A DNA stretch of 64,000 nt from Marinobacter sp. (GCA_018066865.1 JAGPVT010000056.1:1-64000), one strand, 5' to 3'; numbered from the stretch's first letter, positions 11,508 to 15,871 are shown. Notes: generated from the letters alone by a model not told the origin. Numbers and translations are program-made.

Positions 11508-11634
11508 TCCGTGTCGGCAAGCCAGCGGGAACGCCCATTCAAAACACTCTGTGAATACTTCCACAGACACCACCATGTTGGTTTATGGCCACTAGTATCC
11601 TGTAAACTGCCCGTCTTATTCTGACGGGCAGCCC

Positions 11635-12693
11635 ATGACTGACAACACCGACACCAGCTACCAGCCACGAACCTCAGCGCGACGCCTTATCCTGTTCAGC
11701 CTGCTCTTTATTGCGCTCACAGCGGCGGGGCTTTACGCCGTTTACGATCAGTTCGCAGAGCGCAGTATCAGTTTTGATATCCAGCTGATTGCACCACAAA
11801 CCCTTGTGGCCGTTGCTGCTTTGCTACTGGTGTATTTCGTCTCTGACGGCCTGCGCTTGCATTTCACGCTGCGAGCCCTCGGGCACCGCTTGTCCTTTCC
11901 GGCAATATTTCGTCTGGTTTTTATCAATCTGTTCTTTTCTAACGTCACGCCTATGGCCACCGGCGGTGGGTTCGCGCAGATCTGGTATCTGAATCACCAT
12001 GGGGTTCCTGTGGGCAGAGCCACGGCTGCGACGACGATCAGAACTGTGCTGGCCGTGCTTTTCATCTTCTCTCTCACGCCAGTTTTTCTGCTGACACTGG
12101 ATGCGTTTGACGGCCAAACCATCACCGGCGGCCTGGGCTTCGCTCTGGCCATCTTCATTCTTCTGTATCTCGGTTTTTTCATTATCCTGCTGTTTCGCAC
12201 ACGCTGGCTCATCGGGCCGCTCAGTGGCCTGCTCAAAACGCTTAACCGCTGGCACCTCATAAGCGATACCCGCCATCAACGATGGCAGTTCAAGGCACGG
12301 CGGGAGATGCTGCGGTTCTCGCACAGCTTTCGTGACTACCTTAGGGGCAGGCCGCTGTTCGTTGTTCTCTCAGTCCTTTTCACAGCCGTATTCCTGCTCA
12401 GCCTGTTCAGCTTCCCTGCTCTGCTGATTTACAGCCTGGGTTACGATGTTGATTATCTGATGTCGCTGGGGTTGCTGGTTGTGACAACGTTTATTATGTA
12501 TTTCTCGCCAACTCCCGGCGCATCCGGCATTTCCGAGGGTGTCTTCGGCAGCTTTTTCAGCGGTATCCTTTCAGGGAACCACCTGATTCTGGTTATTGTA
12601 AGCTGGCGCCTGATCACCATTTATTTCGGCATGATCATCGGCCTGGTCGTGCTGCAAAGAGAACTGATTAAAAGTCGCAGGAACCCCGGATGA
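11635..12693 (+). CDS. lysylphosphatidylglycerol synthase TM-domain (UPF0104/YbhN-type) protein
   Basis: INLFFSNVTPMATGGGFAQIWYLNHHGVPVGRATAATTIRTVLAV and PTPGASGISEG motifs. Confidence 0.88.
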   Translation: MTDNTDTSYQPRTSARRLILFSLLFIALTAAGLYAVYDQFAERSISFDIQLIAPQTLVAVAALLLVYFVSDGLRLHFTLRALGHRLSFPAIFRLVFINLFFSNVTPMATGGGFAQIWYLNHHGVPVGRATAATTIRTVLAVLFIFSLTPVFLLTLDAFDGQTITGGLGFALAIFILLYLGFFIILLFRTRWLIGPLSGLLKTLNRWHLISDTRHQRWQFKARREMLRFSHSFRDYLRGRPLFVVLSVLFTAVFLLSLFSFPALLIYSLGYDVDYLMSLGLLVVTTFIMYFSPTPGASGISEGVFGSFFSGILSGNHLILVIVSWRLITIYFGMIIGLVVLQRELIKSRRNPG

Positions 12694-14927
12694 TTTTCCG
12701 AAACCCGCTAAAACTGCTGTTCTATCTTTGTCTGCTGATCGTGATATTGCTGGTGGGCTACAAGGCCTACCTGAACTTTTTCATGGAAGACTTCGCGGGC
12801 GTTCATACCGAGCAGGTTGAGCAGATTCATAGTGACTTGTCCGCCACAGAACCCTTCAGCTTTGCCGTCGTTGGCAACATCAACAACTCGGTCGGTATTT
12901 TTGAAGAGCGCATTATTCCGGAGCTCAACGCCTCGGGTATGGACTTCCTGATATCGGCCGGCAATGCCGTCAGCAGTGGTGGCGAAGACAAATACCGCGC
13001 CCTGTACGGAACCCTCAGCCATCTGGACATTCCGTATCTGCTTACATTTGGCGCTCATGAGTACAGCAATTTCGGCAGTTTCCGTTTTTATGACCACTTC
13101 GGGCCGCATTTCTTCAGTATTCAGGCTGGCAGCACTCGGCTGTTTTTTCTGGACAGCACCGGCAAAACGCCCTGGCAGTGGCAGATCCGCTGGCTGGACG
13201 ATCTTCTCAGCCAGGACACTTCGAAAGCCAGAATCCTGTTTATCGGGCACCCTCCGCTAAAGCCCGAAGCAGATGTTCTGTTCGACCGGCCAGAGGATTA
13301 TCTTGCGCCGCCTGAATTCCGGAGCGCGCTTCTGGAGGCAGCCAAAGAACACAACATTGATCTGGTGTTCTCCGCAAATCTTTCGTTGTACTCAGAGCAA
13401 CAGCTGGGCGACACGCGCTTCATCACCACCGGCGGTGCCGGCGGGCTGATACTGAACGATGACACCAGCTTTTATCATTACGTGCGGGTGAACATAAGCC
13501 CGGAAGGCGAAGTCAGCCACTCACTTCAACAACTCGAAGTCGGTCAGCATCCGGTTCTGAAACGACTCGAAAGCCTGTGGTTCTTCGTCTATTCATTGTT
13601 CTATACCGGCTATCTCAATTTCATTCTGATTGTAGCCATCTTCGCAGCGATCACCATCAAGCTCTACGCCACTATCTTTGTCGGCAAGGACTACTACCCG
13701 GACTACGATCTTGACCCTACGCCATGGCTGGAGAAACCGTTACGAGTGGTCATGTTCACCAACAACTATCTGCCGTTTATAGGTGGTGTACCCATTTCCA
13801 TTGCCCGGCTAATGCGAGGACTGGAACAACTTGGCGACAGACTGCTGGTTGTGGCACCGCGCTACAAGGATCAGCCGGAGGCTGAAGAGCACGTACTCCG
13901 GGTTCCTTCTCTGCTCGCCATGGGCGAGAAGCGCGAATTCCGCCTGGCCAACATCTTTCTTGGCCGCATCCGCAAACGGGTGCGGGCTTTTCATCCGGAC
14001 ATCATTCACATGCACCACCCGTTCTGGCTGGGCTCGCTCGGACTGTTCATGGCGCGCAGGCTCAAGGTGCCCGCGATTTACACCTACCACACCAGGCTCG
14101 AGCACTACGCTCACTTTGTGCCACTACCAGGCCTGATCTTCCGTAATCTTATCTCCCATGCGCTGATCAAACGCTTCGCCAACAAATGCGATGGCGTTAT
14201 CGTGCCGACCTACTCAACCGAGGAGTACCTCCGGATGATCGGCGTGAAAACACCCACCTTCGTGCAACCCACAGGGATTGAGTACAAGCGTTTTCAAACG
14301 GTAACGGACGACGAAGTTGCTGAGCTTCGCAAGACTCTGAAACTGAACGATGAGGTGGTCTTCATCAGCGTGTCGCGGCTGTCGAACGAGAAAAATATCG
14401 ATTTCATGATCGAGGCGATCAGCACATTGCGACAGGAAACGAACAAACCCTTTCACTTCCTGATGATCGGTGACGGCCACCAGAAAGATCGGCTTCAAAA
14501 CAAGATTCAGGAACTTGGCCTTGAAACCTGCATTACTCTGGCTGGCGCGGTACCGCCAGATGACATGGCTGTCTGGTATCGCCTGGGCGACGCCTTTCTG
14601 TTTGCTTCCAAATCCGAAACCCAGGGCATGGTTATTCTGGAGGCAATGGCAGCAGGCCTGCCTGTGGTCGCCGTGCGCTCCAGTGGTATCGACGACGTTA
14701 TACGCCACGGTTTTAATGGTTTCAAAACTCCGGAAAGGCAGGATCAGTGGTGCGCACAGGTAAAGCACTTGCTGGAAGATGACGACCTGAGGAATACGCT
14801 TTCCACACAGGCTCTGGCATTCGCCAAAGACTTTTCAGTGGAACAGTTTGCCAGTGATGTTCGCGAGATTTACGCTACTACTCTGGCACTCAACGATAAA
14901 AAGCTAAGAAAACGGAGAGAAGCGTGA
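12690..14927 (+). CDS. fusion: membrane-anchored degenerate metallophosphoesterase domain plus GT4 glycosyltransferase
   Basis: N-terminal TM, calcineurin-like fold pattern lacking canonical metal ligands, internal TM, then GT4 domain (FTNNYLPFIGGVPISIARL...SEVISV-type core, SKSETQGMVILEAMAAGLPVVAV). Confidence 0.88.
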   Translation: MIFRNPLKLLFYLCLLIVILLVGYKAYLNFFMEDFAGVHTEQVEQIHSDLSATEPFSFAVVGNINNSVGIFEERIIPELNASGMDFLISAGNAVSSGGEDKYRALYGTLSHLDIPYLLTFGAHEYSNFGSFRFYDHFGPHFFSIQAGSTRLFFLDSTGKTPWQWQIRWLDDLLSQDTSKARILFIGHPPLKPEADVLFDRPEDYLAPPEFRSALLEAAKEHNIDLVFSANLSLYSEQQLGDTRFITTGGAGGLILNDDTSFYHYVRVNISPEGEVSHSLQQLEVGQHPVLKRLESLWFFVYSLFYTGYLNFILIVAIFAAITIKLYATIFVGKDYYPDYDLDPTPWLEKPLRVVMFTNNYLPFIGGVPISIARLMRGLEQLGDRLLVVAPRYKDQPEAEEHVLRVPSLLAMGEKREFRLANIFLGRIRKRVRAFHPDIIHMHHPFWLGSLGLFMARRLKVPAIYTYHTRLEHYAHFVPLPGLIFRNLISHALIKRFANKCDGVIVPTYSTEEYLRMIGVKTPTFVQPTGIEYKRFQTVTDDEVAELRKTLKLNDEVVFISVSRLSNEKNIDFMIEAISTLRQETNKPFHFLMIGDGHQKDRLQNKIQELGLETCITLAGAVPPDDMAVWYRLGDAFLFASKSETQGMVILEAMAAGLPVVAVRSSGIDDVIRHGFNGFKTPERQDQWCAQVKHLLEDDDLRNTLSTQALAFAKDFSVEQFASDVREIYATTLALNDKKLRKRREA

Positions 14928-15871
14928 ACGGCATTCCTGTGGGAATCAGCACTTGTCTGCTGGGCAAAGAAGTTCGCCATGACGGCGGCCATAAACATTC
15001 CCGTTATTGCACGCAAGTGTTGTCACAGCACTTTGATTTCCAACCCATTTGTCCGGAACTGGAAGCCGGCTTGGGCGTACCCCGCCCGGCCATTCATTTA
15101 CGGGAACATCCAGACGGTGTGCGCCTGATCGAAACAAAAGGCACTGCCGACCACACGGGCGCCATGCAGGAGTTCACAAGCCGGATATTGCCTGAGCTGG
15201 CCCACCTGCGCGGTTACATACTGATGGCCAAATCCCCAAGCTGCGGCATGGAGCGCATCAAGGTTCATAACCCGGAAGGCCAGGTGGTTCGGCGTGACGG
15301 GCAAGGAATGTTTGCCAAGGCGCTGATGCGCGCTTACCCGTTACTGCCGGTTGAAGAGGAAGGCCGGCTGAACGATGACGCACTCCGGGAGAATTTTATT
15401 GAGCGGGTGTTTGCCTATGACGACTGGATGCAAAATGTTGCTGGCGAGAACCTCTCTGCAAAAGCACTGATCGAATTTCACACCCGTCACAAGTTCCAGT
15501 TACTGGCGCACTCCGAGAAAATCTACCGACAGCTTGGCCCAATGCTGGGTGACCTCAAAGCGGATGCCCTGGAAACCATTGCGAGCCGCTACATTCAGGC
15601 GTTTACGGATGCGATGACTCAAAAGGTAAGCCGTGGCTCACACATGAATGTGATGCAACACCTGATGGGTTATCTGCGGGATGCAATGGGGAACGAGGAT
15701 CGCAAGGTTCTGGTAGAGCAGATTGAAGCTTATGGCCAAGGCGAGGTGCCGCTGGTTGTACCTATGACGTTACTGAGAATGGCACAACGCAGGGAGCCGG
15801 TGGATTACCTGCGCCTGCAACAGTACCTGAGCCCCTATCCGGACGAATTGGGGCTCAGGAACAAGGTCTGA
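14924..15871 (+). CDS. DUF523 + DUF1722 protein (YbgA-like)
   Basis: GISTCLLGKEVRHDGGHKHS and C-terminal DUF1722 FHTRHKFQLLAHS. Confidence 0.92.
   Translation: MNGIPVGISTCLLGKEVRHDGGHKHSRYCTQVLSQHFDFQPICPELEAGLGVPRPAIHLREHPDGVRLIETKGTADHTGAMQEFTSRILPELAHLRGYILMAKSPSCGMERIKVHNPEGQVVRRDGQGMFAKALMRAYPLLPVEEEGRLNDDALRENFIERVFAYDDWMQNVAGENLSAKALIEFHTRHKFQLLAHSEKIYRQLGPMLGDLKADALETIASRYIQAFTDAMTQKVSRGSHMNVMQHLMGYLRDAMGNEDRKVLVEQIEAYGQGEVPLVVPMTLLRMAQRREPVDYLRLQQYLSPYPDELGLRNKV

Follow-up and report, generated by a model that had tools for sequence, protein, structure and literature searches.

The stretch of Marinobacter sp. DNA that I analysed (GCA_018066865.1 JAGPVT010000056.1:1-64000; 64,000 nucleotides, the window) carries on its plus strand a real open reading frame (ORF) of 745 residues with an ATG start, in which a metallophosphoesterase (MPP) domain without its metal site, here called the pseudo-MPP, is fused to a glycosyltransferase (GT) of family GT4. 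Orthologues with the same architecture occur at about 110 loci, the nearest species record being that of M. maritimus (94% identical), and a literature search, with most subscription journals outside its scope, brought up no account of the fusion. The gene overlaps by 4 nt both the flippase-like gene upstream (11635-12693, ATGA) and the gene downstream (14924-15871, GTGA), and because of these overlaps the three are probably co-transcribed. The pair formed by flippase gene and fusion comprises the following features:

11635-12693, plus strand: flippase-like gene (UPF0104 / LPG_synthase_TM), 352 residues, first of the pair (PF03706, TIGR00374)
12690-14927, plus strand: pseudo-MPP / GT4 fusion, 745 residues (ORF, Pfam, orthologues, model)
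12705-12779, plus strand: first transmembrane segment (TM1), residues 6-30 (hydropathy 2.2-2.35; model helix 6-30)
12825-13550, plus strand: predicted periplasmic pseudo-MPP domain, residues 46-287 (Foldseek matches to Rv0805, purple acid phosphatase (PAP) and GpdQ; profile match to PAP)
12873-12890, plus strand: GNINNS, altered GDxH, residues 62-67 (109-row alignment)
12954-12965, plus strand: SAGN, altered GD (bridging Asp), residues 89-92 (N92 in 109/109)
13050-13061, plus strand: GAHE, altered GNHD, residues 121-124 (A122 variable, H123 His or Asn, E124 in 109/109)
13245-13256, plus strand: GHPP, with H187 (His in 94/108)
13371-13385, plus strand: SANLS, altered GHxH, residues 228-232 (alignment with the GHxH motifs of PAP and of intact MPPs)
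13428-13445, plus strand: TGGAGG glycine loop, residues 247-252 (G249, G251 and G252 in 109/109)
13551-13682, plus strand: amphipathic helix and second transmembrane segment (TM2), residues 288-331 (single model helix; hydropathy peak 311-331)
13743-14894, plus strand: predicted cytosolic GT4 (GT-B) domain, residues 352-735 (PF00534, PF13439, PF13692; Foldseek)
14616-14642, plus strand: E-x7-E catalytic motif of GT4, E643 and E651 (both 109/109)

An earlier note on this DNA had read the N-terminal domain as calcineurin-like and catalytically dead, and the structure prediction that it called for bears out the fold. Pfam finds the GT4 domains strongly at residues 364-708 and Metallophos (PF00149) weakly at 75-228, at 19.5 bits, just below the cut-off of 21.5 bits that Metallophos scores of 19.5-21.9 bits straddle; a PHROGs search found nothing. 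The AlphaFold model of the N-terminal half, built from a 71-row alignment, has a mean predicted local distance difference test (pLDDT) of 81, and all of its top Foldseek matches are calcineurin-like: Rv0805, PAP and GpdQ (E about 1e-12 to 1e-10, the best 1.8e-12), with GAP50 and Vps29 also among them. By sequence alone, a profile of this half finds PAPs (E 3e-5) and GpdQ. The domain thus modelled is a calcineurin-like MPP by predicted fold. The full-length model, from a 60-row alignment (four plasmid-locus rows being left out of the modelling), shows helix 6-30, an alpha/beta domain at about 56-281, one long helix at 288-331 and GT-B from 352, with a pLDDT of 83 and a predicted template modelling score (pTM) of 0.54, a value too low for the position of one half against the other to be trusted. 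The hydrophobic helices, 6-30 and about 298-331, bracket the MPP domain as had been proposed, and TM1 is preceded by two Lys/Arg and no Asp/Glu and followed by four Asp/Glu and no Lys/Arg, a charge pattern that favours a cytoplasmic N-terminus, a periplasmic MPP domain and a cytoplasmic GT.

The loss of the metal site was traced in an alignment of 109 homologues (36-94% identity; Gammaproteobacteria, roseobacter plasmids and Desulfobacterota; some columns have 108 rows), with intact bacterial MPPs from the search, such as L130, and kidney-bean PAP as references for the motifs. The altered motifs are as quoted in the earlier note: G62-N-I-N65 stands for GDxH, G91-N92 for GD, G121-A-H-E124 for GNHD and S228-A-N230-L-S232 for GHxH, so that where L130 reads GDTRE, GDIV, GNHD, CHVP and GHNH the fusion reads GNINN, GNAV, GAHE, GHPP and SANLS. 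Neither metal-site aspartate, D63 or D92, is found in any of the 109 homologues; position 63 is Asn in 104 of 108 rows and Glu in the other four, and position 92 is Asn throughout, a pattern that chance comes nowhere near explaining. In most rows Asn and Ser occupy the histidine positions of GHxH (N230 in 99/109, S232 variable), H123 is His in 54/109, and H187, the only canonical metal-ligand histidine usually retained, is missing from the Halomonas group among others. Of the seven canonical ligands, two at most survive in any row. Judged by its residues, the domain falls outside the catalytic calcineurin-like class, and the reading of the phosphoesterase half as metal-dead is supported for the whole family.

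What replaced the metal site is itself conserved. N66 and S67 are present in 108/108 rows, D155 and Q165 in 109/109, and the altered pocket as a whole (N66, S67, N92, E124, D155, Q165, W168) is invariant or nearly so in an MPP domain that is overall more variable than the GT. Even the most divergent members, from Desulfobacterota at 36-42% identity, keep the signature G-[NE]-x-x-N-S / G-N-[AS]-V / G-x-x-E / T-G-G-x-G-G, and the metal site was therefore lost before the members found diverged from one another. No fusion with an intact metal site turned up in N-half searches of 399 and 369 genomes, in a full-length search of 395 Desulfobacterota-phylum genomes or among plasmid records; everything that these searches gave was either a dead-site fusion or a remote, stand-alone MPP whose site is intact. 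In pairwise comparisons with ten orthologues, for which some dS values are near saturation, dN/dS is 0.03-0.09 for the MPP part, 0.045-0.10 for the GT and 0.05-0.10 for the flippase, and the two halves show correlated pairwise distances (r = 0.89, uncorrected for shared ancestry). Because the altered pocket is nearly invariant and dN/dS is as low as in the GT half, the pseudo-MPP is, on this comparative evidence, an old pseudoenzyme domain under purifying selection and not one in decay. The conservation of a dead domain also makes a non-catalytic role a sensible reading, and in this general sense the sensor or scaffold role suggested for it in the earlier note is supported. Two individual copies deviate: one on a Desulfosarcina ovata plasmid (L122 4926-6485) has lost most of the MPP half, keeps the final strands of that half together with TM2 and the GT, and has recombinase and Tn3 genes as neighbours; in L117 (G035) the reading frame of the fusion changes at residue 164, through a frameshift or a sequencing error.

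The other half is a GT4 enzyme by its GT-B fold, its E-x7-E motif and its Arg/Lys donor-site residues. E643, E651, R563 and K568 each occur in 109/109 rows, and since the catalytic residues are invariant the GT half should be active. Its Foldseek matches are MshA, BshA, PimB' and PimA, and its best NCBIfam model is the alpha-monoglucosyl-diacylglycerol synthase Mgs (NF049988), at 209.6 bits against a cut-off of 400, which agrees with the resemblance to diacylglycerol glucosyltransferases noticed before; the half is a relative of lipid glycosyltransferases belonging to neither the Mgs nor the GpgS family. In a tree with 13 non-fused GT4 sequences, several of them on long outgroup branches, the fused GTs form one clade (support 96/96), which fits a single fusion event. 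The nearest unfused GT4s are 30-36% identical, and two of them share a conserved operon layout (L175 4877-11559 and L176 6482-13183), which consists of a VTT-domain protein, an ORF of 760-800 residues with no Pfam match, the GT4 and a Phosphodiest + Exo_endo_phos fusion protein.

The gene that precedes the fusion belongs to UPF0104 / LPG_synthase_TM (PF03706 at 126.7 bits and TIGR00374 at 103.1 bits, both over cut-off); against the model for flippases of glucosaminyl-phosphatidylglycerol (GlcN-PG), NF053789, it scores 40.9 bits, under the cut-off of 320. The earlier note had not mentioned this gene. It adjoins the fusion in most Marinobacter, in all ten Idiomarina, Pseudidiomarina and Marinospirillum loci, in four other Gammaproteobacteria and in three roseobacter plasmid types, and the adjacency is kept although the remaining neighbourhood changes; all 32 plasmids with a related flippase come from genera that carry the fusion. 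The plasmid copies show horizontal spread, and most of the hosts that have a name come from marine or saline settings. On two roseobacter plasmids Ca/Na antiporter genes adjoin the pair, with CorA or TerC nearby, and a link of the fusion to salt or divalent cations is, on these two plasmids, only a lead.

In Desulfobacterota an LPG_synthase_TM gene lies directly upstream of the fusion in G965 and G991, and two further genomes add a deacetylase of N-acetylglucosaminyl-phosphatidylglycerol (GlcNAc-PG), likewise absent from the earlier note. In G1104 the fusion, the deacetylase, LPG_synthase_TM and a VTT-PAP2-LssY protein follow one another on one strand (L160 5965-12092), and in G886 (L161) deacetylase and flippase lie beside the fusion on the other strand. 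The two deacetylases score 338 and 353 bits (cut-off 280), the G1104 flippase, a truncated fragment of GpgF-like type, matches the GlcN-PG flippase model at 140.7 bits over 226/327 positions, and no separate GpgS was detected in either genome at E<=1e-50. In G1104 and G886 the fusion thus appears to take the place of GpgS in the arrangement of gpgSDF, whose products in P. aeruginosa and E. coli are GlcNAc-PG and GlcN-PG (PMC12713373). L160 also contains, within a few kb of the fusion, a two-component system and a gene for a lipid A acyltransferase.

Two features of the Marinobacter locus stand apart from the pair:

14924-15871, plus strand: gene of DUF523 (2-thiouracil desulfurase type) and DUF1722 (PF04463, PF08349)
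11607-11631, plus strand: 9-bp perfect inverted repeat CTGCCCGTC N7 GACGGGCAG (sequence)

The DUF523-DUF1722 gene is an operon partner of the fusion in most Marinobacter only and is not beside it in the Idiomarina, Halomonas and plasmid loci. The inverted repeat has a 7-nt loop and ends 3 nt 5' of the flippase ATG, with no obvious Shine-Dalgarno sequence. Many orthologues in Marinobacter retain it, with compensating changes at a few places, and it could be a 5' leader hairpin that controls translation; because the genome holds a single exact copy, I rejected it as the operator of a regulon.

How does the fusion compare with known systems? GpgSDF of P. aeruginosa (a GT4, a COG3233 deacetylase and a UPF0104 flippase) resembles it in uniting a GT4 and a UPF0104 flippase in one operon, and resembles G1104 and G886 also in a GlcNAc-PG deacetylase above cut-off; the fusion GT lies in another GT4 clade, carries a pseudo-MPP ectodomain and two TM segments, and in Marinobacter comes without a detected deacetylase. 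G106 (L168), a genome with the fusion, has elsewhere a GpgS at 599 bits, above the NCBIfam cut-off, and no match to the GlcNAc-PG deacetylase. HexSDF of Clostridioides difficile consists of a synthase, a deacetylase and an MprF-like flippase with an adjacent two-component system (PMC10128005), and a two-component pair likewise adjoins the fusion in L162 and lies nearby in L160, but HexS is annotated as MurG / MGDG-synthase-like and no MPP domain is described for it. Mgs is the top-scoring family over the full length of the GT half, at half its curated cut-off, and has no MPP or TM part. Rv0805, GpdQ and the PAPs, the nearest solved folds of the N-terminal half, have intact metal sites. GAP50 and Vps29 use the calcineurin-like fold as anchor or adaptor; unlike the fusion, both are eukaryotic and without a fused glycosyltransferase.

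I consider it somewhat more probable than its denial that fusion and flippase form a two-gene glycolipid synthase-flippase module, in which the pseudo-MPP binds a headgroup or a partner without hydrolysis and couples this binding to synthesis or export. In the scheme that I infer for activity, donor, acceptor, flipping and ligand, the GT4, which TM1 and TM2 anchor to the inner leaflet, would move a sugar from a nucleotide sugar onto a glycerolipid (phosphatidylglycerol or diacylglycerol), and the UPF0104 protein would then bring this glycolipid across the inner membrane into its outer leaflet. On the periplasmic side the pseudo-MPP would bind a lipid headgroup or a protein partner and report on or hand over its ligand, so that binding outside would be coupled across the membrane to synthesis or export; binding without hydrolysis is suggested because the PAP-like fold and conserved pocket are kept and the metal ligands are gone. 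Family and context argue for the glycosylation step, linkage for the flipping step and only conservation for the pseudo-MPP step.

Several observations weigh against this module. The GT half is under the cut-offs of both lipid-GT models (besides Mgs, GpgS NF053787 at 123.9 bits against 480), GpgS-like sequences form a clade separate from the fused GTs, so that the fusion GT is no GpgS orthologue, and among its nearest folds are BshA and MshA, enzymes with soluble acceptors. GpgD and GpgS were not detected in Marinobacter (an assembly 88% complete), so that the Marinobacter product may differ from that of Desulfobacterota; with the flippase as its only part of a GpgSDF-type operon and no deacetylase detected, the Marinobacter sugar is probably no free amino sugar. 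Nor was a flippase homologue detected with the fusions of G106, G800-G803 and the Halomonas PA16-9 plasmid; the fusions lacking one belong to the Halomonas-like group, P. taeanensis, Halopseudomonas pelagia and two Desulfobacterales metagenome-assembled genomes (these incomplete, and one PA16-9 replicon searched). The flippase is therefore not an obligatory partner, and an obligate docking of the fusion to it is a weakened proposal. Just downstream of the PA16-9 fusion, on the other strand, lies a VTT-domain gene whose product could substitute for the flippase.

The glycerolipid acceptor could be wrong. It is possible, though I think it unlikely, that the acceptor of the GT is of the polyprenyl-phosphate or lipid A type, with UPF0104 flipping the sugar-carrier and the pseudo-MPP presenting it for envelope decoration: UPF0104 is a broad family, GT4 enzymes include lipopolysaccharide and polysaccharide transferases, and some copies in Desulfobacterota and Halomonas have genes for lipid A acyltransferase, VTT (DedA-like) and PAP2 proteins in their vicinity. 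Yet the Marinobacter locus has no polymer or lipid A glycan cluster, the closest models are glycerolipid GTs, and the GlcNAc-PG deacetylase context also points away from such acceptors. More improbable is the phosphate-stress remodelling that the earlier note took from PlcP and Agt, a known MPP and GT4 pair (PMC8528852, PMC8231724), with a lipid acceptor proposed for both systems; the GT would make glucosyl-diacylglycerol when phosphate is scarce and the dead MPP would sense phosphate or phospholipid. A glucosyl-diacylglycerol synthase as best GT model, marine hosts and a PhoD-like alkaline phosphatase gene near one plasmid copy fit it. PlcP, however, is a separate, active, Mn-dependent enzyme in PhoB-controlled operons (PMC8528852, PMC8231724), whereas the fusion is joined, metal-dead and without a Pho box: none lies upstream of 11635, where the note had proposed to look, loose matches in the window number 5 against 4.9 expected, and the regions upstream of the orthologues score about as shuffled sequence does, so that Pho-box control was rejected with no site better than chance. 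No PlcP-Agt operon was found elsewhere in the genome either (0/8 other MPP genes share a contig with another GT4 gene), the flippase and deacetylase contexts are foreign to PlcP-Agt, and the nearest folds, in a comparison that did not include PlcP, are those of Rv0805, PAP and GpdQ.

Two further proposals concern the pocket itself. That it binds a single cation (Ca2+ or Mg2+) through E124, N92, N63/E63 and D155, as a cation sensor or weak residual hydrolase, would suit the invariance of E124, N92, D155 and Q165, the Asn or Glu at position 63 and the Ca/Na antiporter, CorA and TerC genes on plasmids; it is highly improbable given that no pocket histidine is family-wide (neither H187 nor H123), that both bridging-site aspartates are lost everywhere, that the plasmid context amounts to two cases and that the spatial closeness of the residues is assumed. 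A passive, ligand-free anchor or folding scaffold that keeps the GT at the membrane has a precedent in GAP50, a PAP-fold membrane anchor (PMC8949495; PDB 3tgh), but an anchor needs no pocket that stays invariant amid a diverging remainder, and I give it very little credence. The glycolipid synthase-flippase module may be taken further, into a proposal that I regard as doubtful but worth stating: the fusion would represent a family of membrane-spanning glycolipid synthases not described before. Its pseudo-phosphatase ectodomain would sense the state of the outer leaflet or of the periplasm (through a phospho-headgroup, the flipped product or a divalent cation) and control the cytosolic GT across the membrane; together with a dedicated flippase this would make a feedback device for lipid composition, built into the enzyme and spread by plasmids among salt-water bacteria.

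Sugar-lipid synthase-flippase modules have gained genes only recently (hexSDF in 2023, gpgSDF in 2025). The fusion is a clear instance of a pseudo-phosphatase that became fixed in two bacterial phyla and, by tying the synthase physically to a metal-dead, predicted periplasmic domain with an invariant pocket, it may offer a tractable case of how synthesis inside the cell is linked to the state of lipids outside.

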